Made by a program: the position numbers and the translations under genes. Shown here piece by piece: positions 11,653-26,612 of a stretch of DNA of 64,000 nucleotides; the first letter of the stretch is position 1; each line of letters starts with the position of its first letter. The notes below the pieces were generated by a model. That model did no database searches. It had not been told where the DNA came from and saw nothing but the letters and a program-made list of their open reading frames with translations. The stretch is from Sphingomonas arenae (GTDB taxonomy: Bacteria; Pseudomonadota; Alphaproteobacteria; Sphingomonadales; Sphingomonadaceae), in NCBI RefSeq assembly GCF_016924655.1, contig NZ_JAFFJU010000001.1:1116001-1180000 (forward strand), written 5' to 3'.

Positions 11653-12218
11653 CGTTCGAGGACCCGCACGGTGTCGCCCGGCTGAATCGGGGTGGTCTCG
11701 GCCGCCGCGTTGGTGACCGCCTGCCCATTGACCTGGCGAATGATCGCCACCTTCTTCTGGTTCGCGCGGAACGTGTAGCCGCCAGCCAGCGACACCGCGT
11801 TGATCACGGTCATGTTCGGCCGGTACGGATACTCGCCCGGATTGCGCACCTCACCCAGGATGTAGATCGGCCGCATGCGCACGGGCTGGATGCTGACGGT
11901 CGGCGACACCAGGATTTGCCGCTGGACCAGCAGCGTCGCCAGCTCGCTCTCCGCCTGGGAGACAGTGCGGCCCGAAACAGGGATCGCGCCGGCGAGCGGC
12001 AGCGTGATCTCGCCCCGGTCGTTGACCATGAAGGTCGAATTGCTGAGCTCCGTCGTCAGGCCGGGGATCACCACTCGCAGCTCGTCACCGGCCGCGAGCC
12101 GATACTGACCCGCGCCCTCCGTTGAAAGGGGCTGCACGCCCGACAGCGAATTGCTGCACCCGGCAAGCGCGGCACCCAGCACCAGGATCCCGAAGAACTG
12201 GAGAAGTCGCCTGATCAT
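11643..12218 (-). CDS. Polysaccharide export lipoprotein (Wza/GumB family)
   Basis: I start the gene at the ATG at 12218, which has GGGAGG 5 nt upstream. The open frame extends to 12272 without a ribosome site. The 191-residue product has a lipoprotein signal with lipobox L-A-G-C (about residues 17-20), then a Poly_export domain (Y-R-L-A-A-G-D-E-L and P-L-A-G-A-I) and a SLBB-like segment (Y-I-L-G-E-V-R-N-P-G). It forms or caps the outer-membrane/periplasm export channel for exopolysaccharide and would work with the Wzc-like kinase encoded at 24026-26311. It is shorter than Wza (about 380 residues) and close to GumB in size. Confidence 0.92.
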   Translation of the reverse strand: MIRRLLQFFGILVLGAALAGCSNSLSGVQPLSTEGAGQYRLAAGDELRVVIPGLTTELSNSTFMVNDRGEITLPLAGAIPVSGRTVSQAESELATLLVQRQILVSPTVSIQPVRMRPIYILGEVRNPGEYPYRPNMTVINAVSLAGGYTFRANQKKVAIIRQVNGQAVTNAAAETTPIQPGDTVRVLERWF

Positions 12219-12268
12219 GTATGCCTCCCTGCACAGGCGGGTTGATGATGCTTCATCCCCAGCCCCCG

Positions 12269-13111
12269 TCAAGCCGCCACTCGGCGGAGTTCAAGCCAAT
12301 GGCCGAGATCCCGGCCGATCAGCGACTGGAGTTGCTCCACGTCGCGCGCATAATAATCCGCCAGCCACGCCCGGGTGTCGGGCCGTAGCGGGGGGTAATC
12401 CACTTGCTTGGCGAAGAGCCCGCGAATTCGCTCGAAGCCCGCTGTGCCGCGCAGGGGTTGAGCCAGCGGCTTCAGCGGCGCCAACAGCTGGCGCATTCCG
12501 AGCGGTAGCAACTGCGCCGCGCCGTCGTTGACGGGGCGGGTCCCCACCCGTTCCGAGTAGCGCGGCTCCGCCCCGATATGGCGGCAAACACCCGTGACCG
12601 CCTCCTCGGCGTTCTCTCGGACATCCTCGTACAAGAGCACGTGCAGCTGATCGGCCGGAAAATGCTCCAGCCAGCGGTGCAGATGGCGTCCATAAAGGCC
12701 GCCCTCCAGGAACCGCGGCTGTTCGCTGCCGTGCCTCAGATACTCTTCCGGGCGGCCGCGGATCGTGCCTCTCCGGAACAGCATCTTGTAGTCGGAATAG
12801 GCGCGCTCCACAGGGTTGCGCAGCTGAACCACCAGTCGCGCCGACGGGAGAAGCGCGGCAACCCGCGCGGGAGCGTCACGATGCGCGAAATAGTCGGCGG
12901 ACTTTTCCCCGACCAGCTGCCCGGGAGCCGCGGGAGCGAAGAGGCTTCGATAATGGTCGAGGCCGCGGTCAAACTCCGTGCTGAAGAAATGCGGCTCCGG
13001 ATTGGGCATGAAGATGTCCGGGTGATCCTGAAGCTGCACGTTGATCCACGTCGTCGCGGCCTTGACCGCGCCGATGACCAGGAACGAGGGCAGGCCGCAG
13101 GTCAAGGTCAT
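12269..13111 (-). CDS. PAPS-dependent sulfotransferase
   Basis: The 280-residue product has the 5'-phosphosulfate loop G-A-V-K-A-A-T-T-W (14-22) with its catalytic Lys, and a 3'-phosphate binding stretch R-N-P-V-E-R-A-Y-S-D-Y in the first half, as in the heparan-sulfate/NodH-type Sulfotransfer_1 family. It should transfer sulfate from PAPS to a hydroxyl or amino group of a glycan. Its stop is 50 bp before the export lipoprotein start and its own start overlaps the aminotransferase stop by 4 bp. It is therefore embedded in the polysaccharide operon, suggesting a sulfated polymer. Confidence 0.88.
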   Translation of the reverse strand: MTLTCGLPSFLVIGAVKAATTWINVQLQDHPDIFMPNPEPHFFSTEFDRGLDHYRSLFAPAAPGQLVGEKSADYFAHRDAPARVAALLPSARLVVQLRNPVERAYSDYKMLFRRGTIRGRPEEYLRHGSEQPRFLEGGLYGRHLHRWLEHFPADQLHVLLYEDVRENAEEAVTGVCRHIGAEPRYSERVGTRPVNDGAAQLLPLGMRQLLAPLKPLAQPLRGTAGFERIRGLFAKQVDYPPLRPDTRAWLADYYARDVEQLQSLIGRDLGHWLELRRVAA

Positions 13112-14358
13112 GCGAGCTTCCCGAGTGCGGCGAGCAGCGCATCCGCCATGAACGCCATTTCCGCTTCGCCAAGCCGGTGATCCACAGGGAGCATGATGCT
13201 CCTCTCACCTACGTTTGCGGCGACGCTCAGCGGCTGGGCCGGAGGGCCGAACGCCTCACGCACGGCCAACTCCCGCGACATGTCGGGACACGAGCCTGCG
13301 CCTGCCGGAATGCCACGCCGGTTGAGCTCCGAAAGCAGGAGGTCGCGCAGCCTCGCCCGCTCGTTCGGCCAACCCTCGACCATCAGGTAATATTTGTAGA
13401 ACGCATGCTCCACATCGGCGGGAACGGCCGGCAGCAGAAGAGCCGGATGGCCAGCGAGCCTGGCGGTCAGCGCCGCGGCGTTGCGCCGCCGTGCCTCCAG
13501 CCAGTGGGGCAGCTTGCGCAGCTGAACGCGCCCAAGCACCGCCTGCATCTCGGTCATGCGCAAGTTGCTGCCGAAGCTGTCGTGCAGGTAACGGTAGGCG
13601 TGGCCGATACTGGGTTGCCCGACCTTCGCGGGGTCCTTGCCATGATCCTTAAACGCCCACGCCCGCGCCCAATGATCGGCATCCTTGAGCAGCAACATAC
13701 CCCCTTCGCCGCCGGTCGACATGATCTTGTCGGTGCAGAAGGAGAAGGCCGCCGCGTCACCGAAAGAGCCCACGGTCTTGCCACGATAGCGGGCGCCGTG
13801 AGCCTGGGCACAATCCTCGATCAGCCACAGTCCATGGCGTCTGGTCAGGGCATCGAGTTCGTCCAGCGCGCACGGCCATCCGGCCAGGTGGACGGCGATG
13901 ATCGCGCGCGTTCTCGCGGTGACCAGTCGTCGTGCGCTCTGGGGATCGATGGTGTGGGTGTTCGGGTCGATGTCCGCGAATACGGGTCGAGCTCCCACGG
14001 CCACAACGGCTGACGTGGTGGCAAAAAAGGAGCGGGCGGGCACGATGACTTCGTCGCCACTGCCGATCTCGAGCGCCCGCAACGCCAGCTCGAGCGCAGC
14101 GGTGCCGTTGGTCAGCGAAATGGCGAACGGCGCCCCGCAGTAGCTTGCGAATTCCTGTTCGAACGCTCGGCATTGCTCACCGTGCACGAGCGAGTTCACT
14201 CGCCCGCCGGCGAGGACGGCGACCACCGCATCGATTTCGTCCTGCTCATGCTGCGGCCAGCGGAGGTGCGGAGGTGGAAAACCCCGAACTTCGGCTTCAC
14301 CCTGCTCGGCCGAATGCTGAAGCCTTCGGGGCCAATCGACGAACATCGCTCCGGTCAT
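13108..14358 (-). CDS. DegT/DnrJ/EryC1/StrS sugar aminotransferase
   Basis: The 416-residue PLP enzyme carries G-T-A-A-L-E (85-90), E-D-C-A-Q-A-H-G-A (181-189) and F-S-F-C-T-D-K (205-211), where Lys211 should form the Schiff base. Unlike the DegT-fold enzyme at 7136-8371, this one keeps the lysine and is a normal aminotransferase. It most likely uses the 4-keto (or 3-keto) sugar made by the CapD-like dehydratase whose gene ends 4 bp inside its start. The product would be a UDP-amino-deoxysugar such as a bacillosamine precursor, from glutamate. Which carbon is aminated cannot be told from sequence. Confidence 0.9.
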   Translation of the reverse strand: MTGAMFVDWPRRLQHSAEQGEAEVRGFPPPHLRWPQHEQDEIDAVVAVLAGGRVNSLVHGEQCRAFEQEFASYCGAPFAISLTNGTAALELALRALEIGSGDEVIVPARSFFATTSAVVAVGARPVFADIDPNTHTIDPQSARRLVTARTRAIIAVHLAGWPCALDELDALTRRHGLWLIEDCAQAHGARYRGKTVGSFGDAAAFSFCTDKIMSTGGEGGMLLLKDADHWARAWAFKDHGKDPAKVGQPSIGHAYRYLHDSFGSNLRMTEMQAVLGRVQLRKLPHWLEARRRNAAALTARLAGHPALLLPAVPADVEHAFYKYYLMVEGWPNERARLRDLLLSELNRRGIPAGAGSCPDMSRELAVREAFGPPAQPLSVAANVGERSIMLPVDHRLGEAEMAFMADALLAALGKLA

Positions 14359-16496
14359 TGCAGCGCTGCCGGTCGTGGGCCGCCCCGCGCGGACCCGAAG
14401 ATATCCGGCCCGGCCGAATCGCGAGCGGCAAACACCGTCAGCCGCTCTTCATCTTCCGCCTCGATCTCCTGCAGGGTGGCGGCCCAGAGTGGATGGCCGG
14501 GCGCGCGGATGAGGTGATGCACCAAGTCCCGGATGCTTTCGTCCTGACCTTCGGCGATCATCCGCTCCAGTGTCTCGAAGCCCGCGACCAGCCGCTCCAG
14601 CGGAACCGGCGCGGGCTTGGCCTCGATCACGCCGGGGATGGTCGAGCGGAGCCGGGTCTCCGACGTATCGAACAACTCCTCGAACAGCTTTTCGCCGGGC
14701 CTCAGGCCGATGTACTTGATGGGCACGTCCTGTTCCGGGCGGAGGCCGGCGAGACGGATCATCCTGCGGGCGATGTCCACGATCTTGATCGGGTCTCCCA
14801 TGTCGAGAACGAAGATGGTTCCACGATGGACCCGGGTCTCGAGCGCGCGGGCGCAGCTCTGCAGGATCAGCTGAACCGCCTCCCCCACCGTCATGAAATA
14901 GCGCTCCATGTCCGGATGGGTGACGGTGAGCGGCTTCCCGGCAGCAAGCTGCTGTTCGAACAACGGGATCAGCGAACCGCTCGAGCCAAGGACATTGCCG
15001 AAGCGGACGGTCATGAACCGCGGGCTGTGCGGGTCGCACTGGCCGATCAGGTCCAGCGCCTGGCAGTAGAGCTCCCCGAGCCGCTTGGTCGCCCCCATCA
15101 GCCCGACCGGGTTCACCGCTTTGTCCGTCGAGATCTGGATCATGGCGAGCGCGCCGAACTCGCAGACGGCGTCGGCCACGTTCCGCGTCCCGAGCACGTT
15201 GGTATGCACCCCGGCCTGCGGATTCACTTCCACCATGGGGACGTGCTTGAGCGCGGCCGCATGGAAGACGATGTCGGGCTGGTGCCGCTCGAAGACCCGT
15301 CGGACGGCCGCACGGTCGCGCACGCAGCAGAGTTCGCCGTGGCACAGGATGTCGGGACAATGCTCCCGGACATGGAGGTCGATGGCGTACAGGTTGTATT
15401 CGCAGTGATCGAGCAGGATCAGCTCTGACGGGCCGAACGTGGCGAGTTGCCGGATCAGTTCGCTGCCGATCGTTCCACCCGCGCCCGTGACGAGTACCCG
15501 GCGCCGGCGGATGAGCCGCTCAACCATGTCGCGCTGGAGGGTGACCTCGGGGCGTTCCAGCAGGTTGGACAATGCAGCGCCGAGGGAGCGTTCCCGCCGA
15601 TGCGGATGCTGCCCCCGCGTCACTGCGATGTCGCACTGGCCGGCCAATGCGAGAAGCTGGGTGAAGACCGGCTGGTCGAGGTCCTCGTCCTCGACGATGA
15701 TGCTCGCTGGGCGCGTGCCGCGCCGCGACAGCGCGGAGGCGACGGCGGGAAGATCGAGGGGTGCTCCGAGCACGGGAATGCCGGCAACCTGGAGTCCGAT
15801 GGCGCGCCGGTCACTCGTCAGTGCGGCGACGACTCGGACGCGGCAATTGCGGTCCGACTTGACCAACTCACCCATGGACTTGATCCATTCGAGTGAGCCC
15901 AGGAGCAGGATGTTCTGCCGGGGCAGGCTGAGGAGATCCGGTGCCCGGATCCGGGCATAGTCGGCGATCGACCGCCGCAGGGCTCGCATCCCGAGCATCG
16001 CCAGCAGCAGCAGGTTCGCGTGCGTCCCCACGAACAGCAACAGGCCCAGCCAGTTGCTGCGCAATTGTGGGTAGAGCAGAAGGCAGGCAGCCCACGCGCT
16101 CGCCAAGCTCATCCCGAGAGCGGCGGACAAGGCCAGGCAATCCTGGAAGGAAATGCACCGCCAGCTGCGCCAGTTCAGCCCGATCACGCCGAGACCGATG
16201 ATCGTGGCAACGGTGAACAGGGCGATTGCGCCCTCCTGTTCCGCGAAGACATGCGCAACCGGGCCCCGGATCAAGGCCATTGCGAACAGGAGAGTCACCA
16301 GCGCCGCCGCGCCGTCGAGAAGGGTCACGACCACGAACCGCGCGCTCGGAGCGACCCGGGCGGGGGTCATCAACGTTTCATCGAGGTTGCTGATCGATAC
16401 CGAGGCCAGCCAGGAGCGAACATGCTTTCGCAAGGAGGAGCCATGCTCCGTGGAAGCGGACGCAGCCCGGTCAGCATCCATGCGTGTTGCCTCCAC
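14355..16496 (-). CDS. Membrane nucleoside-diphosphate-sugar 4,6-dehydratase (CapD/WbpM/PglF-like)
   Basis: The 713-residue product has four N-terminal membrane helices (about 54-74, 88-108, 118-140, 150-170), a CoA-binding-like Rossmann domain (about 195-300) and a C-terminal extended SDR domain. That domain has G-A-G-G-T-I-G-S-E (338-346), S-T-D-K (456-459) and M467-x3-K471. Met in place of the catalytic Tyr is characteristic of WbpM/PglF-type UDP-GlcNAc 4,6-dehydratases. It makes UDP-4-keto-6-deoxy-GlcNAc or a relative at the inner membrane. It is the first gene of the minus-strand operon, and the adjacent aminotransferase is the likely next step. The upstream 383-nt gap divides it from the first LuxR-type regulator. 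A second in-frame ATG at 16481 is an alternative start. Confidence 0.93.
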   Translation of the reverse strand: MEATRMDADRAASASTEHGSSLRKHVRSWLASVSISNLDETLMTPARVAPSARFVVVTLLDGAAALVTLLFAMALIRGPVAHVFAEQEGAIALFTVATIIGLGVIGLNWRSWRCISFQDCLALSAALGMSLASAWAACLLLYPQLRSNWLGLLLFVGTHANLLLLAMLGMRALRRSIADYARIRAPDLLSLPRQNILLLGSLEWIKSMGELVKSDRNCRVRVVAALTSDRRAIGLQVAGIPVLGAPLDLPAVASALSRRGTRPASIIVEDEDLDQPVFTQLLALAGQCDIAVTRGQHPHRRERSLGAALSNLLERPEVTLQRDMVERLIRRRRVLVTGAGGTIGSELIRQLATFGPSELILLDHCEYNLYAIDLHVREHCPDILCHGELCCVRDRAAVRRVFERHQPDIVFHAAALKHVPMVEVNPQAGVHTNVLGTRNVADAVCEFGALAMIQISTDKAVNPVGLMGATKRLGELYCQALDLIGQCDPHSPRFMTVRFGNVLGSSGSLIPLFEQQLAAGKPLTVTHPDMERYFMTVGEAVQLILQSCARALETRVHRGTIFVLDMGDPIKIVDIARRMIRLAGLRPEQDVPIKYIGLRPGEKLFEELFDTSETRLRSTIPGVIEAKPAPVPLERLVAGFETLERMIAEGQDESIRDLVHHLIRAPGHPLWAATLQEIEAEDEERLTVFAARDSAGPDIFGSARGGPRPAALQ

Positions 16497-16879
16497 TTAA
16501 CCGCAGCGCCAGCGGGCTCTGTGTGCTTGTGACCGACCACCGGGTGCGTGCTCGGCACATGGCTCTTCGCCTTCTGGAACGATGTTGGAGGCTAACAGAG
16601 GATGGTGACCGAACCACCGGGCCAGAGTGGTATAACTCTTTTTCGTGCCGCCCTATTCCCTTGGTCGGGGTGACAGCGCGTTCGCGCAGAGCAGTCCCGA
16701 AACCAGACAGAAAACTTCGGAATTCCGCCAACGATCGCACGTTTCTGGAAGGGATTACATGGACTCCGGGTTTACTTTCTGTTAATCATTCTAGAATCGC
16801 AAAAGCTAACCTCGGTTAGTTTCTGACGTTTCGCTCAATGCCTAAGATGTTGGAGTGAGCGTAACAGCGGGGGGTGCCA
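16497..16879. other. Divergent regulatory region between polysaccharide operon and LuxR-type regulator
   Basis: This 383-bp gap carries no gene. It is clearly richer in A and T than its surroundings (for example tataactctttttcg near 16630 and tttctgttaatcattctag near 16785). It must hold the promoter of the minus-strand operon and that of the regulator at 16880. It contains a perfect inverted repeat at 16806-16819 (annotated separately). I could not assign convincing -35/-10 or sigma-54 hexamers. Confidence 0.6.
16806..16819. promoter_or_regulatory. Candidate operator: inverted repeat ctaacc-tc-ggttag
   Basis: This is a perfect 6-bp dyad with a 2-bp centre, about 60 bp before the start of the LuxR-type regulator. 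A related TAAC/GTTA dyad lies before the paralogous regulator (23049-23063). It could be an autoregulatory site. No binding data are available and short dyads occur by chance. Confidence 0.35.
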
Positions 16880-17641
16880 ATGCCGTTGCAGATCGATGTG
16901 GCTCTGGTCGGGCGAAACACGATTGTTCGCGAAGGCCTGCAGCGCATCCTGTCCGAGAACGACTTTTCAGTTCGCTGGTCGGCAGCGAGAACGGTCGACC
17001 TTCCTGATATCCGACGTGACGATCCGTGGCTGCTCCTGTTGTTTGCGGACAGCGACGACGCGGCGGGGGACGGGGACTCCATTCACGAACTGCACCGCCG
17101 CTTTCCGAGCGCGCGTATCGTCCTGCTCGCCAGCGAGTTCGACTTCGCCCAGGTTCGCACCGCCTTCAAGGCCGGTGTTTGCGGGTGCCTGGTGGATGAA
17201 ATCGCGTGCGACCGCCTACTCGGCTTGCTGCACCTCGTTGCTCTCGGCGAAAAGGTGTTCCCGTCGCAGCTCGCGGACGAACTGGTCGATCATGCCGCGG
17301 CCTCCCACCCGATGGCCACGGCACCGACCATCAACTCCGCCAACCTGTCCTGTCGCGAGGTGGAAATCCTGCGCTGCCTCATCATGGGTCTGCCGAACAA
17401 GGTCATCTCCCGCCGCCTGTCGATCAGCGAGGCGACGGTGAAGGTCCATGTGAAGGCGGTACTCCGCAAGTTGCAGGTGATGAACCGCACCCAGGCCGCC
17501 ATCTGGGCGACCAGTCGCGGCCTGCGGGGACTGGATAACGACGAACCGTTGCCGCCCAGTGCGATGCATGCCGCGCTGGCAGCCACGTCGGGTCTCGACC
17601 ATGGCAACTCGCCGGCCCGGGAGCCGCTCCCGACCGCGTGA
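16880..17641 (+). CDS. LuxR/NarL-type regulator with degenerate receiver domain (paralog 1)
   Basis: The product has 253 residues from the ATG at 16880 (a GTG 6 nt earlier is possible; a G-run sits just upstream). The N-terminal domain has a receiver fold but lacks its chemistry: the acidic pair is G11-R12, the phospho-Asp position is Phe55 (L-L-L-L-F-A-D), and the beta-5 Lys is Val. The C-terminal GerE-type helix-turn-helix is intact (L-S-C-R-E-V-E-I-L-R-C-L and the recognition helix around S-E-A-T-V-K-V-H-V-K). It probably activates or represses the flanking polysaccharide operons without classical phosphorylation. It shares near-identical motifs with the regulator at 23147-23884. Confidence 0.88.
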   Translation: MPLQIDVALVGRNTIVREGLQRILSENDFSVRWSAARTVDLPDIRRDDPWLLLLFADSDDAAGDGDSIHELHRRFPSARIVLLASEFDFAQVRTAFKAGVCGCLVDEIACDRLLGLLHLVALGEKVFPSQLADELVDHAAASHPMATAPTINSANLSCREVEILRCLIMGLPNKVISRRLSISEATVKVHVKAVLRKLQVMNRTQAAIWATSRGLRGLDNDEPLPPSAMHAALAATSGLDHGNSPAREPLPTA

Positions 17642-17789
17642 AGGTCCACCCTGCGGCCGGGCGCTCTGTCCCGCCCGCTCGAGTGCTCCTTGTGCGCCAT
17701 TCGCGGCAATTATGAGCAGTGGACGCTGACCGGCGCGGCGCGGCATTCATTGTTCCCGCCACTCGGGAGCATGGGAAAGTCCAGTCGCG

Positions 17790-19106
17790 ATGCAGCCACG
17801 CGCGCACTCCGTGTCCGCCACCTGTCCGAACCCTTCGCCAGCGGGAGCGATCGCCCCGGCCAGTCCGCTCGAACGCCTGGAGTTCCTGTGTGCCCAGGCG
17901 GCGGTGTTCCTTGCACCCTACCTGATCCTTCGAACACCTGGCGCCTACCTCACCGTCAGCGACATGCTGATGATGCTGGTATTCTTCTTCCGGCTCTGCA
18001 CGGGACGCCTGTCCCGTCCCTTTGGCGACTTCACCTGGCTATGGATCGCGGGAGCGGCGCTCCTGATCGGCGGGCTCATGCTGGGCACGGTCGTGAACGG
18101 CGACATGAACCGCGGACTGGAGGTCTTCGGTCAGTACGGATTCGCACTGATCCTCGTCCCGCTGGCGCTGCTCGGCCGTCCGGTCGACCAGGTGGTGCAA
18201 CTCATGCGCTGCGCGATCTGGGGCATGGCCATCATGTGCGCCCTGGGGATCGCCATCTTCCTCACCGGCTACCGGTCGGATGGATCGCAGGTCGAGTTCG
18301 TCACCGGGAACGGCCGGCTGGCGGGCTTCGTCGAAAATCCGAACGGCATGGCGGTTCTGGTCGTGCTCGCTTTCCCCTTGGTATGGTTCCTGCTCGCAAG
18401 TCGGCAGATCGGTCGACTGGCCGGGTTCGCCGCCATGGGCGTGCTGCTCGCCGGGCTCCTGCTGACAGCGTCCAACACCGGGCTGCTCGGGCTCGCCCTG
18501 GCCTTGCTGGTCTTCTTCGTGGGGCGTCGAAGCTTTCGGACCCTGGTGTCGGTGGCCGTGGTCGGTGGAGCCCTGTTCTTTATCGGCCAGCAATATATGC
18601 CGCTGACGTTTCAGCACCGCGTGCTGGGAGCGTTGACATCCGGAGACATCGATCAGGCCGGAACCTTCGCCTACCGCCGGGAGCTCGCGCGAGAAGCCTG
18701 GTCGAAGGTTGAAGACCATATCGTCATCGGTCTCGGCGCCGATCACTACCGGGTCGTGAGCGATCTTGGCCACATCGTTCACAACACCTACCTCCTCCTG
18801 CTCGCCGAGGGAGGAGCGCTGGCCCTGTTCGGCCTGCTGGCCCTGTTCGCCGCGGCACTCCTGACCGTGCTCACCTCGTCCATGCGTCCATTCGGCTCGC
18901 TGGTGACCCTGACCACCTTCACCGTTCTGGTCGTGTTTGCGAACCTGCTGAACGGCATTGCCCACGTCTATGGCCGCTGCTGGTGGATTTCGCTGCTGCT
19001 GGCGGTGGGGCCTGCCGTGGCCAAGGTTCCTCGGCCGGTGGCGATGATGCCCGTGCGGCTGCGGTCCCGCCCGCGAACTGCCCGGCCCCGAGCCGCGGTC
19101 GGCTGA
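17790..19106 (+). CDS. O-antigen polymerase/ligase-like membrane protein (Wzy/WaaL family)
   Basis: The 438-residue product has about ten hydrophobic segments and a large periplasmic loop with G-L-G-A-D-H-Y-R and H-N-T-Y-L-L-L-L-A-E-G-G, the Wzy_C motif region. It should polymerise lipid-linked repeat units in the periplasm, or ligate the finished chain. The next gene is a Wzx-like flippase, so a Wzx/Wzy route is complete here together with the Wzc-like kinase and the export lipoprotein. The chosen ATG lacks a strong ribosome site, so the first 25 Pro-rich residues are uncertain. Confidence 0.87.
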   Translation: MQPRAHSVSATCPNPSPAGAIAPASPLERLEFLCAQAAVFLAPYLILRTPGAYLTVSDMLMMLVFFFRLCTGRLSRPFGDFTWLWIAGAALLIGGLMLGTVVNGDMNRGLEVFGQYGFALILVPLALLGRPVDQVVQLMRCAIWGMAIMCALGIAIFLTGYRSDGSQVEFVTGNGRLAGFVENPNGMAVLVVLAFPLVWFLLASRQIGRLAGFAAMGVLLAGLLLTASNTGLLGLALALLVFFVGRRSFRTLVSVAVVGGALFFIGQQYMPLTFQHRVLGALTSGDIDQAGTFAYRRELAREAWSKVEDHIVIGLGADHYRVVSDLGHIVHNTYLLLLAEGGALALFGLLALFAAALLTVLTSSMRPFGSLVTLTTFTVLVVFANLLNGIAHVYGRCWWISLLLAVGPAVAKVPRPVAMMPVRLRSRPRTARPRAAVG

Positions 19107-19118
19107 GCGAAATCGGTC

Positions 19119-20492
19119 GTGTCGAGCGCGTTTCCGAGACCATCCCGAGCAGCCGTGCGGCGCATGATGAATGTCGGTCACGTGCTGACCGGCACCTTCG
19201 CCAACGCCGGGATCATGCTGGTGGCGGTCGCCTTCGCCGCCCGCTCGCTCGGACCGGAGGTGTTCGGCTCCATGGTCCTCGTCCTGGCGCTGGCCAGCAC
19301 CGTGGAACGGCTGGTCCGGTTCGAATCCTGGCAGCCGCTCATCAAGTTCGTCGCCGACGAGGAGCCCCATGCGAGTCCGGTCCGGCTCGCCCGACTGTAC
19401 GGCCTCGGGTTGATGCTGGACGTCACGACGGCGATTCTTGCCGCAGCGGTGACCGTCATTGCCGCGCTCGTGCTCCACAACCTGTTCGGATGGACCAGCA
19501 TCTCCCCGGCAGCGGCCGCCATCTACGCAGTCGCCATGCTGTTCAACATCCTGGGAGCCCCGATCGCCGCGCTTCGGCTCGCCGGACGGTTCCGGACCGT
19601 GGCCTATGTCCAGTTGCCGGCAAACATCATTCGCGCGCTGCTTGCGGGCGCGTGCCTGCTGCTGGATGCCGGGCTGCTGTGGTTCATGCTGGCTTGGACG
19701 ATCGCCGAGGTGGGCTACCGGGCAGCGGCCCTGTGGCTTGGGCTCAAGGCGTTGCAGGACCGCGGGATCCCCAATCCCCTCCATGTTCCCTTGCGCGGAC
19801 TGCTCAAGGACTTCCCGGGCTTCATGTCCTTCGCCTGGTCGATCAATCTGTCGACCATGCTCCGCACGCTGACGGTCACCGCGGACGAACTGGTGGTTGG
19901 AGCCCTAATCGGGCCAGCCGCCGCCAGCATGTACAACTTGGCGAAACGCGCCGCCAAGTTCAGCCAGGAGATCGGCACGCAGATACAGACGGTGATCTAT
20001 CCCGAGCTCGCCCGCATGTGGAGCGACAAGAACGCCCACCTATTCCGCACCACCGTGCTCAACACCCAGCTGGTGCTGACCGGGATCGGCGTGCTGATCG
20101 TTGTCACGGTTTGGGTGCTGGGGCATTGGGCCATCCGGCTGGGCCTCGGCGAGGCCTATCTCCCTGTCTATCCGCTGCTGGCGATCCAGGTGGTGGCCGT
20201 GCTGTTCACGCTGACGGTCGCGCCCGGCCGCTCGGCGATGCTGTCCATGGGTCGCCACCGCGCGCTGCTCGGCATCTCTGCCTTGGGGACATTGTTGTTC
20301 TATGCCATTTTGATCCCGGGGCTGCTGCTGCAGGGGCCGGCCGGAGCCTCCTTCGCTCATGTCGTGCTGACCTTCACGACCGCCATCCTGATCGATCGCC
20401 AGTGGCGACGTCATTATCGCAGGTCGCCTCCCGAGACCTTCGTTGGTCGGGTCCCGGAAGTATATCGTCCCGAAGTGCAGCCCTCCAAGTGA
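19119..20492 (+). CDS. Polysaccharide flippase (Wzx/MOP superfamily)
   Basis: The product (457 residues from the GTG at 19119) has 12 predicted membrane segments evenly spread. It opens with an N-terminal helix G-T-F-A-N-A-G-I-M-L and A-A-R-S-L-G-P-E-V-F-G, typical of MOP-family repeat-unit flippases. It moves undecaprenyl-PP-linked oligosaccharide to the periplasmic face. It lies 12 bp after the polymerase gene and 55 bp before the next glycosyltransferase. An ATG at 19164 (M-M-N-V-G-H-V) is a plausible alternative start, and neither has a clear ribosome site. Confidence 0.88.
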   Translation: MSSAFPRPSRAAVRRMMNVGHVLTGTFANAGIMLVAVAFAARSLGPEVFGSMVLVLALASTVERLVRFESWQPLIKFVADEEPHASPVRLARLYGLGLMLDVTTAILAAAVTVIAALVLHNLFGWTSISPAAAAIYAVAMLFNILGAPIAALRLAGRFRTVAYVQLPANIIRALLAGACLLLDAGLLWFMLAWTIAEVGYRAAALWLGLKALQDRGIPNPLHVPLRGLLKDFPGFMSFAWSINLSTMLRTLTVTADELVVGALIGPAAASMYNLAKRAAKFSQEIGTQIQTVIYPELARMWSDKNAHLFRTTVLNTQLVLTGIGVLIVVTVWVLGHWAIRLGLGEAYLPVYPLLAIQVVAVLFTLTVAPGRSAMLSMGRHRALLGISALGTLLFYAILIPGLLLQGPAGASFAHVVLTFTTAILIDRQWRRHYRRSPPETFVGRVPEVYRPEVQPSK

Positions 20493-20547
20493 CCTCATCG
20501 GCTAGGCTCACCTTCATCTCCGCCGCGCGGCAAATGGGTGGCACCTT

Positions 20548-21723
20548 GTGAAGATCGTGATCCTGTGCAGTCTCGCAAGCTCGCTGACCAACTTCCGCGG
20601 CCGGCTGATCGCGGACCTGGTCGCCGGAGGGCACGAGGTATTGGCCTGCGCTCCCGACGAAAATGAAGAGGTGATGACTGCGTTGTGCCGAATGGGCGTG
20701 CGGTTCCAACAGACCCGCATGTCCCGCGCCGGACTAAGCCCATTGGAGGACGCTCGCACTCTGGCGGGCTACGCCAGGCTGTTGATGCGGGAACGGCCCG
20801 ACCTGGTGCTCGCCTATACCCAGAAGCCGATCATCTATGGCGGCCTCGCCGCGCGGCTGACCGGCAGTCCCTTCGTCGTTCTGATGAGTGGGCTCGGCTA
20901 TGTCTTCAGCGCCGCCTGCGACCACCGGCCATGGCTGCGCCGCATCGTCGCGACCTTGTACCGGGAGGCGGTTCGCAAGGCCCGCACCATCTTCGTGTTC
21001 AACGGTGACGATCGGCGCTGCATGCTGGAGCATGCGATCATCGCGCCCACGATGCCTGTGGTCCAGATCCCGGGATCGGGCGTGGACCTGCAGCACTATG
21101 CCTACCGCGAACTGCCGGACGGCCCGCCGACATTCATCATGATCGGACGGCTGATGCGGGACAAGGGCGTTGCTGAGTTCGTCCGAGCCGCCGTCGCCGT
21201 GCGCCGAGAATTGCCGGACGCCAGGTTCCAGCTGCTCGGCAAGGTCGAGGACCGCAACCCGACGGGGATCAGCCCGGACGTCGTGCGCGGGTGGACGGAA
21301 GAAGGGATCGTCGAGCTGCTTCCCGAGACAACGGACGTGCGCCCGTATCTCACCGGTGCTCATGTTTTCGTGCTCCCCTCCTATTATCGCGAAGGTCTGC
21401 CGCGAACGCTCCTGGAGGCCCTCGCGACCGGGCGGCCGGTCATTACGACCGACATGCCGGGGTGCCGCGAACCCGTTGTTCCAGGCGAGAATGGCTGGCT
21501 GGTGCCTGCTCGCGACAGCGACGCGCTGGCCGATGCCATGGTCCGCTCGGTGAAATGCCCGCGGACTCTGCGCCAGATGAGCCGCAGGGCGCGGCAGCTC
21601 GCGGAGGAGCGGTTCGATGTTGCCGACGTCAACCGGATGCTGCTGAGCGCGATGGTCAACCATGGTGATCCTGTTCGGCCTGCCGCGGTGACGGGCAGGA
21701 CCGTGCCTGCGGCCAGTCACTGA
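20548..21723 (+). CDS. GT4 family glycosyltransferase (PglA/CapM-like)
   Basis: The product has 391 residues with a GTG start. The N-terminus K-I-V-I-L-C-S-L-A-S-S-L-T-N-F-R and the loop Y-T-Q-K-P-I-I-Y-G match PglA/WbnE-type enzymes that add the second sugar to an undecaprenyl-PP-linked acetamido sugar. The C-terminal half shows I-G-R-L-M-R-D-K-G-V and the E-x7-E site (R-E-G-L-P-R-T-L-L-E-A). The next gene, 2 nt away, is a PglC-like phosphoglycosyl transferase, so these two probably start the repeat unit. Confidence 0.9.
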   Translation: MKIVILCSLASSLTNFRGRLIADLVAGGHEVLACAPDENEEVMTALCRMGVRFQQTRMSRAGLSPLEDARTLAGYARLLMRERPDLVLAYTQKPIIYGGLAARLTGSPFVVLMSGLGYVFSAACDHRPWLRRIVATLYREAVRKARTIFVFNGDDRRCMLEHAIIAPTMPVVQIPGSGVDLQHYAYRELPDGPPTFIMIGRLMRDKGVAEFVRAAVAVRRELPDARFQLLGKVEDRNPTGISPDVVRGWTEEGIVELLPETTDVRPYLTGAHVFVLPSYYREGLPRTLLEALATGRPVITTDMPGCREPVVPGENGWLVPARDSDALADAMVRSVKCPRTLRQMSRRARQLAEERFDVADVNRMLLSAMVNHGDPVRPAAVTGRTVPAASH

Positions 21724-21725
21724 TC

Positions 21726-22298
21726 ATGCAGGCGCTGCCGACCCGGGTCGTTGGTGCGCTGCTGCTGCTCCTCTCGACCCCGCTGCTGGTGATGATCGCC
21801 GGACTGTTGATGCTGGTGCTGGGGCGGCCCATCCTTTTCCGGCAGGACCGTGCGGGCCTGCACGCGCGCCCATTCGAGATGATCAAGTTCCGAACCATGA
21901 GCCTGGAACGCGATCGGTCGGGCAAGCTGTTGCCGGACGACCAGCGGCTTTCGGCACTGGGCCGAGTGCTTCGCAGGAGCCGGCTGGACGAGCTGCCCGA
22001 ACTCATCAACATCGCGCGGGGGGATATGGCGTTCGTGGGGCCACGGCCGCTGCTGCTCGACACGATCTCCGCCATGGGTGAGGGCGGGACGCTGCGGTGC
22101 ACGGTGCGGCCCGGCCTGACCGGCTGGGCGCAAGTCAGCGGCAACACGCTGCTGAGCAATCGGGAGAAGCTCGCACTGGACCTGTGGTACGTGAGCCATC
22201 GCAGCTTGATGCTCGATCTCGAGATCCTGATCCGGACGCCCGCCGTTCTCCTGCTCGGTGAGCGGCGTCATTCCAAGCGCCTGGCGGACGTTCAGTGA
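21726..22298 (+). CDS. Monotopic phosphoglycosyl transferase (PglC-like bacterial sugar transferase)
   Basis: The 190-residue product has the short PglC layout: one N-terminal reentrant hydrophobic helix, then R-Q-D-R-A-G, K-F-R-T-M, the catalytic dyad in S-R-L-D-E-L-P-E-L-I-N (Asp-Glu), and V-G-P-R-P and V-R-P-G-L-T-G-W-A-Q. It transfers a phospho-sugar from UDP-sugar to undecaprenyl phosphate, the first membrane step of repeat-unit synthesis. It lacks the CoA-binding N-terminal half of WbaP/WcaJ. The likely donor is the UDP-4-amino-6-deoxy sugar family made by the divergent operon (CapD-like dehydratase and aminotransferase). Confidence 0.94.
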   Translation: MQALPTRVVGALLLLLSTPLLVMIAGLLMLVLGRPILFRQDRAGLHARPFEMIKFRTMSLERDRSGKLLPDDQRLSALGRVLRRSRLDELPELINIARGDMAFVGPRPLLLDTISAMGEGGTLRCTVRPGLTGWAQVSGNTLLSNREKLALDLWYVSHRSLMLDLEILIRTPAVLLLGERRHSKRLADVQ

Positions 22299-22978
22299 CC
22301 GACTTGTCGCGGATGCGCCGGGTTGTGGTCGTGGCGCCCCATCCGGATGACGAGGTGCTCGGATGCGGGGGGACGATCGCGCGCCTGGCGGACGAGGGAG
22401 TGGACGTCCACGTGGTCATCGTGACACGGGGGGAGCCGCCCGCGTTTGATGCCGCCTTCGTGGTCCAGGTGCGAAGGGAAGCGGCGGAGGCGCACCGGCG
22501 GCTTGGCGTCGGGCAGAGCCATTTCGTCGACCTGCCGGCGGCACGTCTCGACACGGTCGGCCAGGCAGAGGTGAATGCCCGACTGGCGGCGGTGCTCGAC
22601 AAGATCGGGCCGGACACCCTGTTTCTCCCCTTCTTCGGGGACATTCATCGTGATCACCAGGTTGCCTTCACCGCGGCAATGGTGTGGGCCCGTCCCAGGA
22701 ACGCGCAGGCGCCCTCGACGGTGCTGGCGTATGAAACATTGTCCGAGACAAACTGGTACGCTCCACCCGCGACTCCCGCCTTCATCCCGACCTTCTACGT
22801 CGATATCTCACCCTATCTGGACGCCAAGCTAGAGGCTTTCGGCTGCTATGAGTCGCAGGTGAAGCGCTTTCCCGACGAGCGCTCGCCCGAGGCGATCCGC
22901 GCGCTGGCGCAGAGTCGGGGCGCAACGGTGTATCGAGCCGCGGCCGAAGCGTTCGTCCATGTGCGCGGGGTGCTGTAG
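22295..22978 (+). CDS. PIG-L/LmbE family N-deacetylase
   Basis: The product has 227 residues from a GTG whose GTGA overlaps the previous stop. It has the zinc-binding A-P-H-P-D-D-E (13-19 region) and the second metal motif D-I-H-R-D-H about 100 residues on. The family removes acetyl groups from N-acetylated sugars such as GlcNAc-PI or bacillithiol and mycothiol precursors. Its place as the last gene of the repeat-unit operon suggests deacetylation of an acetamido sugar, giving a free amino group in the polymer or its precursor. Confidence 0.9.
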   Translation: MTDLSRMRRVVVVAPHPDDEVLGCGGTIARLADEGVDVHVVIVTRGEPPAFDAAFVVQVRREAAEAHRRLGVGQSHFVDLPAARLDTVGQAEVNARLAAVLDKIGPDTLFLPFFGDIHRDHQVAFTAAMVWARPRNAQAPSTVLAYETLSETNWYAPPATPAFIPTFYVDISPYLDAKLEAFGCYESQVKRFPDERSPEAIRALAQSRGATVYRAAAEAFVHVRGVL

Positions 22979-23048
22979 GCGACGCTGACCATCGCCTTGG
23001 TCGGCCTCTACCCACTGAGAGTTACTCCATGCGGGGGACAGACTCAAT

Positions 23049-23063
23049 TTAACGCTATGTTAA
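23049..23063. promoter_or_regulatory. Candidate operator: inverted repeat ttaac-N5-gttaa
   Basis: A perfect 5-bp dyad with a 5-bp centre lies 84 bp before the start of the second LuxR-type regulator, in a short AT-rich stretch of an otherwise GC-rich region. It resembles the TAAC/GTTA dyad at 16806-16819 ahead of the first regulator but with different spacing. A role as promoter element or operator is inference. Confidence 0.35.
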
Positions 23064-23146
23064 CATCCCATGAGAATCGGCGCGATCGTGATTTGCTCCG
23101 GTTCGGGGTCCCGGGGGGGAAAGGTAGCTTAACGAGCGGAGGCGTT

Positions 23147-23884
23147 ATGGCGAATCCCGTCGGAGTCTTGTTGGTCGGTCGGAACGGCATCGTTCGCGAG
23201 GGACTTTCCCGAATTCTCTTGGACAACGGCTTCCAGGTCCTGCAGTCGGTCGGAAGCCTGCACGAGCTGAGCTACGCAGCCGGCGAAAACGTCGAGTTGA
23301 TCGTGGTCGATCCAATCGCGTGGACGGCAGAAGGCGCCGAGATCGCCAGCACGAAGGCCTCGTTCCCCCAGGCGCGCATTATCGCGCTGATGGACAAGTT
23401 CGACTTCAACGGCGTCGTGGCTGCGCTGCGGGCTGGTGCCCATGGCCTATTGCTGACGGACATCAGCTGCGCCGGCCTCGTCCAGTCGCTTCAGCTGGCC
23501 ACCAAGGGTGAGCGGATCCTGCCGTCGCAGCTGGCCGACATGTTGTCGTCCTTCGTGGCCGACGTACAGTGGCAGCCCGATGAGAGCGTTCAGCGCACCA
23601 ATCTGTCCACTCGCGAAATCGAGATCCTGCGCTGCCTGATCATGGGGTGCCCAAACACGCTGATCGCCAAGCGGCTCGGGATCACGGAGGCCGCGGTCAA
23701 GGTCCATGTGAAGGCGGTGCTGCGCAAGATTCCGGTCAAGAACCGCACCCAGGCAGCGATCTGGGCGATCAAGCGCGGGATCACGGCACTGGATCTGCCG
23801 GACGTGAACTCGGCGGCCCCGGTCGCTCCGGCTGCCCCCGTCATTGCCGCCACGGCGGCGCAGCGGGCGCTCGAAGCCGCCTGA
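23147..23884 (+). CDS. LuxR/NarL-type regulator with atypical receiver domain (paralog 2)
   Basis: The product has 245 residues. The ATG at 23147 is fixed by GGAGG 4 nt upstream; the frame is open back to 22997 but that part is leader. The receiver-like domain reads V-L-L-V-G-R-N-G-I-V-R-E-G-L, so the acidic pair is Gly-Arg, and the beta-5 Lys is Thr. Asp55 is kept at the phospho-acceptor position, unlike in paralog 1. The GerE HTH is intact (L-S-T-R-E-I-E-I-L-R-C-L; E-A-A-V-K-V-H-V-K). The Ala/Pro-rich tail is unstructured. Together with paralog 1 it brackets the plus-strand polysaccharide operon and is likely to control it. Confidence 0.9.
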   Translation: MANPVGVLLVGRNGIVREGLSRILLDNGFQVLQSVGSLHELSYAAGENVELIVVDPIAWTAEGAEIASTKASFPQARIIALMDKFDFNGVVAALRAGAHGLLLTDISCAGLVQSLQLATKGERILPSQLADMLSSFVADVQWQPDESVQRTNLSTREIEILRCLIMGCPNTLIAKRLGITEAAVKVHVKAVLRKIPVKNRTQAAIWAIKRGITALDLPDVNSAAPVAPAAPVIAATAAQRALEAA

Positions 23885-24025: not shown

Positions 24026-26311
24026 TCAGGCGTCCTGCTGCTGGTTCCTGCGCCAGAAGACGGCAAGCCGCTCCCGCAAGCTTGCCCGCTGCGGGACCGA
24101 GCCGGAATAATATTCAGCCGAGTCCATGTAGAACTGCACGGAGTCGCCGTAGCCCCGCCGCGCATGCTCGGCATAATCGACGCGGTTGAGCACCACGCCG
24201 TCGACCTGTTCCTGCAGGACCTGGAGCGTCGCCCGCACCTGTTCAACGGTGGTGCGGCCCCAGCGGACGACCATCAGCGTATGGTCCGCGGCCTCGATCA
24301 GCATCCGCGCGTCGCGGGTTGCGAGTGCGGCAGGCGCATTGATGACGATCAGGTCGAACTGCTGGTGCAGCTCGGCCAGCAGCCGGTTCACGCGCCGCAA
24401 CCGCATCAGGGTCGATGGATTGCGCACGGGCTCGGCGGCGCTCAGCACCACCGGCTGGTGCACATCGCCGTCCGGGCCTTCCCCCACCAAAGTCGGGCTG
24501 GGTAGGAGCCGGGCGATGTCCGCGTTCCCGGACAGGTAGGCGACGATATCGTTCCCGCCCGCCTGTTCCTGCACGGAGCGCAGGATCGTTCCGACCGGGC
24601 GCCGCAGATCGAGGTCGACCACGACCGCACGGCGGCCGGACGCAGCGGCGGCCGCGGCCAGCGACAGCGCCACGGTGGACTTGCCGTCGCCCATGACCGG
24701 TGAGGTGATCAGCACCGTTTGCGTCCGTCCATGCCGGGCAAGATCCGCCACCTCCGCCGCAAGGCCTCGGCAGACCTCCGCATAGAGCGACTGCGGATCC
24801 TCGGTGACCGGGTTGTTCTCCGCCGATGGACGGCTTTCCTTGCCAAGGTCCGGGAGCATGGCAAAGGTCGGGAGACCGAAGTGGCGCGCAATCTGGTCCG
24901 CGTTCCAGAGCCGATTGTCCGTCAGCTCGATGGCGGCGATCAACAGGAGACCCAGCATCAGCGATCCGGCGAAGGCCGCGAAGGTGGCGCTCTTGGGACG
25001 CGGGCTGATCGGTTCGCCGGGCACCGCCGCCGGCGAGACCAAGGTCGAATGCACGCCTTCCGCATCGAGGCTGGACTGCACTTCCTGGCTCATCTTGGCG
25101 GTGGCCAGATAAGCCTCGCGAGCGGCAATCGCGCGCCGCTCAAGCGCGTTCAGCTCGACCATGTTGGCGGTGTTCGCATAAGCCTTGCTGATCATGTTCC
25201 GCAGCTGGCCCTGAAGCTGGCTGGAGCGAGCGCTTGCCGCCGCTGCCTCGCTTGACGCCATGCCCCGCTCCCGGGCCGCTTCGGCGGCAGTGCGCGCGTT
25301 GGCAGCCGCAATGACGTTGGCCTGCTCCTGCTGCATGGCCCTGCGGGTCTCGCCGATCTGCGCGTCCACGCTCTGCATCCGGGGGTGCTGCGGACCGTAG
25401 GTGACCGATAGATCGGAGCGCTCGCGGATGAGTTCGTCCAGGCGCCGCTGCTGCTGGTCGAGGAGTGGAGAGCTTGCGCCGGCCACCGACCGGTTGGATA
25501 CGGCGGCGCTGACTCCGGCCGCCCGCGCGCCCTGTGCCGCGCGCATCGCCTGCGCGGAGGCGGCCTCGATGGAAATCTGATTGATCTGCGCCAGATCGGC
25601 TTCTCCGCCGGCGCCCACCAGCATCTGGTTGGCCCGGCGGAAGTCGGCCAGCGCCTGTTCGGCCTGGCGCGCCTCGTTGGCCAGCCGACTGCGCTGCTGC
25701 TCCAGGTCACGAACGACGCCGGTGCGGCGCTGGTCGCGATCTTCCGTGCGGAGCGCCGCGAGGCTTGCGGCATATTGGTTCGCAACATCGGCCGCGAGGT
25801 CGGCGGATGGCGAAGTCACTTCAATCTTGATGAAGTCGCCGTCGGATGCGGGCGTGATGTCCGCCATGGACATGAGCGTACCGGCGCTGCTGGCAAGGTG
25901 CTGCGGGGTCACCGGCTGTCCCGGCGGGAGGGGGCGTTTGGTGAAGCGCGGATCGCTGGGCAGGTTGAGGTCCTTCGCGACCCGCTCGGCCACCGAGCGC
26001 GACGCATAGAGGCCTGCTTCGTTCAGGACTCGTTCCCGGTTGCGGCCGGCCACCTCGGGCGTGCCCTTCTCGTCATTGAGTTCGACCTGAATCGTTGCGG
26101 TGGCCCGGTAGATGGGGGTGGCCGACCATTGTGAGAGAAGCACCGCGAGGACCGTCAGGCAGACGATCGCCCCGAGCAGCAGCTCGTACCGCCGGATCAC
26201 GCTCCAGATCTGCCGCGCGCTGTAGGGGCCCCCCTGACCGGTGTAGATGGCCGGAACGACGGCCTGTTCGCCGTTTGCCGAGGGGCTGCCGATCGCCATA
26301 TGCCTGGTCAT
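24026..26311 (-). CDS. Wzc-like polysaccharide co-polymerase with tyrosine autokinase domain
   Basis: I place the start at the ATG at 26311 (AGGA 8 nt upstream), giving 761 residues. The open frame runs to 26581 but that extension has no domain. Layout: TM1 (44-61), Wzz domain, long Ala/Gln-rich coiled coil (about 190-410), second TM near 470-490, then a BY-kinase domain with Walker A G-D-G-K-S-T (541-546) and Walker A' V-V-V-D-L-D-L-R-R-P. The Walker B place reads L-I-V-I-N-A-P, with Asn where Asp is usual. The C-terminal Tyr cluster is short (Tyr721, 728, 734, 735). It regulates chain length and export with the Wza-like lipoprotein. It converges on the second LuxR-type gene. Confidence 0.92.
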   Translation of the reverse strand: MTRHMAIGSPSANGEQAVVPAIYTGQGGPYSARQIWSVIRRYELLLGAIVCLTVLAVLLSQWSATPIYRATATIQVELNDEKGTPEVAGRNRERVLNEAGLYASRSVAERVAKDLNLPSDPRFTKRPLPPGQPVTPQHLASSAGTLMSMADITPASDGDFIKIEVTSPSADLAADVANQYAASLAALRTEDRDQRRTGVVRDLEQQRSRLANEARQAEQALADFRRANQMLVGAGGEADLAQINQISIEAASAQAMRAAQGARAAGVSAAVSNRSVAGASSPLLDQQQRRLDELIRERSDLSVTYGPQHPRMQSVDAQIGETRRAMQQEQANVIAAANARTAAEAARERGMASSEAAAASARSSQLQGQLRNMISKAYANTANMVELNALERRAIAAREAYLATAKMSQEVQSSLDAEGVHSTLVSPAAVPGEPISPRPKSATFAAFAGSLMLGLLLIAAIELTDNRLWNADQIARHFGLPTFAMLPDLGKESRPSAENNPVTEDPQSLYAEVCRGLAAEVADLARHGRTQTVLITSPVMGDGKSTVALSLAAAAAASGRRAVVVDLDLRRPVGTILRSVQEQAGGNDIVAYLSGNADIARLLPSPTLVGEGPDGDVHQPVVLSAAEPVRNPSTLMRLRRVNRLLAELHQQFDLIVINAPAALATRDARMLIEAADHTLMVVRWGRTTVEQVRATLQVLQEQVDGVVLNRVDYAEHARRGYGDSVQFYMDSAEYYSGSVPQRASLRERLAVFWRRNQQQDA

Positions 26312-26612
26312 GAAGCCGTCCTGCCGTTGCCGGCGCGCGGGTGCGCTGCCGCAAGAACGGCACTGTGCGAACCTGCTCCGCCCAGGGCAAAAGGTCTTCG
26401 GTCGCGAACACATGGATTCGGAGCTAACCCGTTCGTGCCACCTCCGGGGGAGACGCGCGCGCCACTGGCGGAACCGGCAGCGGAGAGTTAAGCGGAGAGG
26501 CTCGCGGGAGAGCGAAGGCCCATGCAGCGCATGCTCCGCGCCGGCTCGTCGGCAGAGCCACGATGCTCCCCGGCCAGTCATTTTGCATTAAATATCGGAA
26601 GCTTACGGTTCG
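26312..26612. other. Divergent non-coding region upstream of wzc-like gene
   Basis: This 301-bp gap separates the divergent Wzc-like and DUF6894 genes. An AT-rich patch (ttttgcattaaatatcgg, near 26580-26598) is the best promoter candidate. The part nearer the kinase gene is still open in its frame but GC-rich and without recognisable protein features, so I read it as leader. I see no RNA gene. Confidence 0.5.

Follow-up and report, generated by a model that had tools for sequence, protein, structure and literature searches.

Regulation of matrix genes by regulators with a degenerate receiver is already known as a kind, from VpsT of Vibrio cholerae and CsgD of Escherichia coli, in which a pseudo-receiver is joined to a LuxR-type DNA-binding domain (PMC3359988 for VpsT) and which form dimers through surfaces other than the alpha-4/beta-5/alpha-5 face (PMC12632262). 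A precedent for two orphan atypical regulators acting together is the BldM-WhiI heterodimer of Streptomyces, in which WhiI lacks the Lys and one residue of the acidic pair and BldM retains its pocket (PMC4125116), and among alphaproteobacteria the LuxR-family protein FlcA of Azospirillum, of 215 residues, controls flocculation and the switch to encapsulated cyst-like cells (PMC4264754). How pseudo-receivers are switched has been called an open question (PMC12632262). Here we describe two regulators of this layout, R1 and R2, encoded in a stretch of 64,000 nucleotides of Sphingomonas arenae (contig NZ_JAFFJU010000001.1, positions 1,116,001 to 1,180,000; hereafter the window), which bracket a block of polysaccharide genes and are probably untagged local controllers of the sugar coat. 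The comparison with the described systems is only partial. Unlike VpsT, R1 and R2 carry no cyclic di-GMP (c-di-GMP) motif and stand as two regulators at one locus; matrix genes are targets of VpsT and CsgD, whereas for R1 and R2 they are known only as neighbors. Against the NCBIfam equivalog model of CsgD, whose cut-off is 250 bits, R1 scores 74.3 and R2 68.3. BldM-WhiI governs development and not a linked exopolysaccharide (EPS) locus, both R1 and R2 lack the acidic pair, and an R1-R2 heterodimer is putative; FlcA is likened to them by description only. The closest solved sequences and folds are those of NarL/FixJ-type regulators (NarL, LiaR, VraR, and DesR; NarL 1a04 at E 7.3e-40 for the profile), from which R1 and R2 differ in lacking the metal-binding pair, the Ser/Thr, and the Lys.

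R1 and R2 each carry a GerE domain (PF00196) well above the Pfam cut-off of 23.5 (69.8 and 59.9 bits, respectively), and their N-terminal parts match only Response_reg, below its cut-off of 30.2 (13.7 and 16.7 bits), as expected of degraded receivers; no autoinducer-binding domain of quorum-sensing LuxR was found in either at E 1 or better in Pfam. When aligned with NarL, both proteins have Gly11-Arg12 in place of the Asp-Asp acidic pair, within a motif V-x-L-V-G-R-N-x-I-V-R-E-G-L that occupies residues 7-20 of each (R1, VALVGRNTIVREGL; R2, VLLVGRNGIVREGL). The T position of the pocket holds Ala in R1 and Met in R2, and the beta-5 Lys is replaced by Asp106 and Thr104, respectively. A preliminary description of this DNA had noted the Gly-Arg pair, the missing Lys, the shared motif, and the retained Asp55 of R2, all of which we also find, and it had placed a Phe at the phospho-acceptor position of R1, which fits only an ungapped comparison. 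The R1 loop is two residues longer, so Asp57 of R1 matches Asp55 of R2 in two alignments, and in the AlphaFold models (mean predicted local distance difference test, pLDDT, of 85.1 for R1 and 87.2 for R2) beta-3 spans residues 51-56 of R1, with Phe55 inside it, and 49-54 of R2, the Asp following directly in both. The full phosphorylation pocket (DD, D, T/S, K) is absent from both proteins, each of which has lost four of the five residues when measured against the definition of a pseudo-receiver in a recent review (PMC12632262). Modeling of the receivers, one of the checks that the preliminary description had proposed, returned a normal predicted fold; the best fold matches of both models are receivers of LuxR/NarL-type regulators, led by 2qsj_B (Z 17.2 over 119 residues for R1, 18.9 over 118 for R2). 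VpsT and CsgD are not among the best 50 fold rows for either model, which has no bearing on kinship.

On sequence grounds, the acidic pair is lost as a rule throughout a clade of Sphingomonadaceae regulators, and the loss is not peculiar to R1 and R2. A profile built from 18 members found 21 proteins in 14 of 99 Sphingomonadaceae genomes (own included), all above an E-value gap from 4.3e-47 to 1.9e-38; one protein each from Hephaestia mangrovi and Sphingomonas deserti brought the set to 23. These two came from a scan of genome contigs with a single protein, which returned two close and three distant relatives and for which an alignment query would have been better suited. Just below the gap, the matches of genomes G033 and G078, at the places of loci L024 and L034, have intact acidic pairs, and that of G065 was left unread. 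In the tree, the 23 proteins group together (support 98/95), separate from NarL and from the canonical rows included. Both acidic residues are retained in none of the 23 (a single member has one of them) but in 29 of 40 comparison rows, not all of which are canonical (part of the pair is missing in L072, L075, L080, L092, L116, and others) and four of which are gapped there. The acceptor, on the other hand, is Asp in 21 members and Glu in the other two; the beta-5 Lys is retained in 14, Ser/Thr at the T position in 5, and Arg or Lys occupies the second acidic position in 14. In the pseudo-receivers surveyed by the review, the first acidic residue is non-acidic in ∼20%, the second in ∼80%, and the Asp is kept in ∼65% (PMC12632262); set against these percentages, so consistent a loss of the pair with an acidic acceptor kept looks unusual. 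The view that R1 and R2 are paralogs is supported by their common clade, and they have probably moved away from ordinary phosphorylation control, the loss itself being clade-wide. Likewise, their degenerate residues prove to be standard in a family, of which no characterized member was found. Searches of the open-licence literature, where subscription journals are mostly missing, found no paper on the clade, and as far as they show, neither the clade nor its pocket pattern or recurrent pairing has been described there; a study of Sphingomonas EPS names, in the part available, an OmpR-type regulator and no LuxR-type one (PMC11340318). More widely, 22 of 289 alphaproteobacterial genomes, counting the one that holds the window, have more distant matches with E-values of 1e-40 or lower, ordinary regulators among them. 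Of 34 such matches outside the own genome, 28 were made into loci; five (L108 and L115-L118, three with a full pocket) were moved to the comparison rows and 23 kept as wider relatives, 13 of which keep at least one acidic residue and one of which keeps both. A relative of 42% identity lies on a putatively viral IMG/VR contig of 11.6 kb (L126:5001-5615).

The preliminary description also had the two regulators flanking a polysaccharide operon, and indeed a wzy-wzx-GT4-phosphoglycosyl transferase (PGT)-PIG-L block of the Wzx/Wzy type lies between them on their own strand (Table 1). Homologs of the window's polysaccharide genes are present at 11 of 20 loci of relatives (∼20 kb each) and at none of eight control loci, which are the surroundings of other response regulators. 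Similarly, a Bac_transf or Poly_export gene is found no more than 15 kb from 11 of 21 clade members (9 of 19 without the window's two regulators), against an expectation of 1.07 for the 21; a million simulated placements never gave so high a count, although the members are related and hence not independent trials. The linkage to matrix genes is thus strong. Strong PIG-L homologs, which outside the window show 55-63% identity, occur in 6 of the 99 family genomes (own included), and a clade regulator lies within ∼3 kb of one in all six; three weaker homologs (34-46%; G042, G058, and G080) are not near any clade member. Gene order was compared at eight EPS-type loci, the other three of the 11 (L057, L059, and L065) being differently ordered and left out: PIG-L lies upstream of the regulator on the same strand at seven, with intervening genes in some, and the full order DegT-, CapD-, GT4+, PGT+, PIG-L+, regulator+ recurs at four. 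R2 occupies this recurrent slot after PIG-L, and R1, together with wzy and wzx, is placed between CapD and GT4. Other members have different surroundings. Three loci without EPS homologs feature surface or secreted proteins, namely a type I secretion operon with an RTX protein (L055, 688-9606), another with a large Ig/cadherin-like protein (L061, 150-9543), and a large RTX protein gene adjoining the regulator (L062, 5117-9301), which suggests that the clade may control protein adhesins besides polysaccharides. The L055 operon also encodes a 374-residue protein with a weak GerE match. Among loci with mixed neighbors, for which few genes were scanned at each, we found flagellin and a transhydrogenase (L060), a catalase and a dehydrogenase (L066), a glycosyltransferase and a phosphopantetheinyl transferase (L067), RtcB and an aspartyl protease (L068), and a Crp-type regulator (L069); the sixth, L070, was outside the neighbor scan. 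EPS linkage was also considered as a rule for the wider alphaproteobacterial relatives and rejected: of six plasmid records sampled from 62 matching R1, two were unannotated in the stretch, and the four with listed genes had no polysaccharide synthesis cluster there.

Identical residues number 55 of 139 (40%) in the R1 and R2 receivers, 45 of 64 (70%) across their DNA-binding domains, and 13 of 14 along the recognition helices. The simplest reading of a shared recognition helix with divergent receivers is that one DNA site may be served by two inputs or by mixed dimers, and the near-identity of the helices is compatible with an R1-R2 heterodimer, as judged from single-chain models only. The phylogeny of the pair, likewise proposed beforehand, placed both in the supported clade without making them recent sister duplicates. 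A recent local duplication is disfavored because R2 branches outside all 22 remaining members, with support (95/78) slightly below the starred level, and because the R1 receiver is closer to the Hephaestia protein (68 of 143 identical) than to R2. Two pseudo-receiver regulators also occur at 5 of the 20 relatives' loci. If clade genes are called type A, the window and genome G043 hold A+A pairs, that of G043 being convergent and away from an EPS locus; its genes (L060:9313-10790) lie between flagellar genes, including flagellin, and the transhydrogenase gene. In G075, G055, G017, and S. deserti the second gene is of type B, a different degenerate LuxR-type family with Asp-Pro at the acidic pair and, by eye, neither acceptor Asp nor Lys. 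Strong type-B matches in the 99 family genomes are confined to G075, G055, and G017, at ∼0.2 to 2.8 kb from the type-A gene, and in S. deserti the distance is ∼6 kb; the type-B seeds were drawn from type-A loci, so that this linkage shows only that the 99 genomes hold no further comparable copy.

We give an even chance to the full proposal that R1 and R2 are phosphorylation-independent, pathway-specific local regulators set by abundance and dimer partner. Its parts differ in strength: that they work without ordinary phosphorylation is likely, that they control the surrounding polysaccharide locus is somewhat less so, and a role for mixed R1/R2 dimers is less likely than not. In such a scheme, R1 and R2 would bind DNA as regulators of the surrounding locus, and their receivers would fold normally; with Gly-Arg in place of the acidic pair, these should not coordinate Mg2+ as ordinary receivers do. 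The retained Asp would probably serve structure or dimer formation, and activity would be set by the amount of each protein and by whether R1-R1, R2-R2, or R1-R2 dimers form. These would act on a shared or very similar DNA site, given recognition helices that are nearly identical while the receivers have diverged.

NarL/FixJ regulators dimerize through the alpha-1/alpha-5 face. Conservation, taken as the sum of squared residue frequencies in the 23-member clade and in 20 canonical rows, is lower in the clade at the acidic-pair loop (0.34 versus 0.88) and beta-3 (0.29 versus 0.66) and also at alpha-2, beta-3 and alpha-2 not being selected columns, and it is higher in alpha-1 (0.58 versus 0.38), in a GEKxxPS turn after alpha-5 (0.62 versus 0.28), in the recognition helix (0.81 versus 0.53), and in the last helix. 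This pattern fits, but does not prove, regulators that rely on surfaces and DNA contacts and not on phosphate chemistry, and it favors surfaces over a pocket. Several points weigh against phosphorylation-independent control of the locus by R1 and R2. The canonical sets (20 and 25 rows) were chosen for an intact pocket, so that strong conservation of the acidic pair, the Asp, and the Lys is built into them, and the canonical set is more mixed than the clade, which inflates what the clade gains in alpha-1 and in the recognition helix. Alpha-4 is poorly conserved in the clade (0.23), the dimer face being a guess, and solved pseudo-receiver dimers form mostly through alpha-4/beta-5/alpha-5, with CsgD, VpsT, FleQ, and RitR as exceptions (PMC12632262). 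Nine of the 20 relatives' loci have no homolog of the window's EPS genes, and the 23 upstream regions share no DNA motif among exact 7- and 8-mers and 4-N(2-12)-4 dyads, whose counts did not exceed the highest shuffle counts. That the nearest HATPase_c domain on the contig lies ∼29 kb from R1, outside the window, speaks for the proposal, but the scan was for that domain only, and HWE-type and other kinase families could escape it. Finally, the Asp, and in most relatives the Lys, is retained, so that weak phosphorylation may still occur.

The preliminary description had suggested a response to a ligand or partner, and the degenerate receiver of each regulator might instead bind a small molecule, for instance a precursor or the end product of polysaccharide synthesis, and so provide pathway feedback. 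We regard such sensing as unlikely: R1 and R2 do lie inside a biosynthetic locus with receivers that diverged and DNA-binding parts that did not, and pseudo-receivers binding pathway end products are known (PMC12632262), as reported for JadR1 and RedZ, whereas the conservation favors surfaces over a pocket, although the ligand could differ from member to member. That R1 and R2 are still weakly phosphorylated in an inefficient pocket is improbable; an acidic acceptor in all 23 members and a Lys in 14 would agree with it, and the phosphorylation chemistry can survive substitutions at DD, T, or K (PMC12632262), but in R1 and R2 themselves the acidic pair, Ser/Thr, and Lys are all missing, and there is no HATPase_c domain within the distance given above. 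Still less probable is a redox switch in which the Cys that begins alpha-5 (Cys110 in R1, Cys108 in R2) governs dimer formation, as Cys residues at other places do in RitR: 11 of the 23 clade members have this Cys, compared with none of 25 rows with an intact pocket, and RitR and Hp1021 are redox-gated pseudo-receivers (PMC12632262), but 12 members have no such Cys, including those of the EPS-linked L014, L016, L020, and L021. A c-di-GMP receptor of the VpsT kind is very improbable despite the similar layout and the neighboring matrix genes, as W[FLM][TS]R, which we take to be the VpsT-type c-di-GMP motif in the sixth helix of the receiver, occurs in none of the 23 members and in no other row scanned.

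A bolder version of the phosphorylation-independent proposal, which we consider unlikely, would see in the clade natural counterparts of CheY D13K, a laboratory mutant described as constitutively active (PMC4671073) with a basic residue at the second acidic position, as in the 14 clade members with Arg or Lys there. Arg12 would fill the metal site, pair with Asp55/57, and lock an active, dimer-forming state, so that homo- and heterodimers, not kinases, would set matrix production. If so, a locus could hold two locked regulators, A+A here and A+B in some relatives. The idea of Arg12 as a built-in metal substitute rests on the CheY precedent, which is not transferable to EpsW, where the same change was not activating (PMC4671073).

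The features of the locus and the type-B genes are listed in Table 1. The sulfotransferase has homologs in L039, L040, L053, and L056 and hints at a sulfated polymer; a 581-residue open frame antisense to wzy-wzx (18039-19784, minus strand) was taken as spurious. Among 60 genomes of the genus, no other yielded a clade member at a comparable score (best 1.5e-31), and only one has a PIG-L homolog at E 1e-30 or better (44% identity); this near-absence indicates a patchy locus, either gained here or lost elsewhere. A foreign origin was not supported by base composition: the 16-24 kb region has 64.5-65.6% G+C compared with 66.3% across the window, and the value of one further 4-kb block is equally low, so the difference is not telling.

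Table 1. Features of the R1/R2 polysaccharide locus (window positions) and type-B regulator genes at loci of relatives (locus positions)
Feature	Position	Strand	Basis
Wza-like export protein	11643..12272	-	Poly_export, SLBB
Sulfotransferase	12269..13111	-	
DegT/DnrJ/EryC1 aminotransferase	13108..14358	-	
CapD/PglF-like nucleotide-sugar dehydratase, divergent from R1	14355..16496	-	
Divergent intergenic region between CapD gene and R1; likely control region	16497..16879	.	
R1, NarL/LuxR-type regulator with pseudo-receiver; extra copy between CapD gene and wzy	16880..17641	+	Pfam, alignment, AlphaFold
Wzy-like polymerase	17790..19106	+	Wzy_C / O-antigen ligase domain
Wzx-like flippase	19119..20492	+	Polysacc_synt_3
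GT4-type glycosyltransferase	20548..21723	+	
Short phosphoglycosyl transferase (PGT), 190 residues	21726..22298	+	Bac_transf
PIG-L family deacetylase	22295..22978	+	
Intergenic region upstream of R2; likely control region	22979..23146	.	
R2, paralog of R1, downstream of PIG-L gene	23147..23884	+	Pfam, alignment, AlphaFold
Wzc-like chain-length/tyrosine-kinase protein, converging on R2	24026..26581	-	
Type-B regulator gene	L053:10629-11390		
Type-B regulator gene	L054:12774-13730		
Type-B regulator gene	L055:10553-11563		
Type-B regulator gene	L040:15781-16536		

As regards the switching of pseudo-receivers, the clade offers a bounded test case, with one fold, an acidic pair lost in all 23 members, an acidic acceptor kept, and a basic residue in the metal site of 14, together with natural pairs and, in many members, a linked candidate target locus. 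From the point of view of sphingomonad biology, polysaccharide loci of this group gain a candidate local regulator of potential relevance to gum production.

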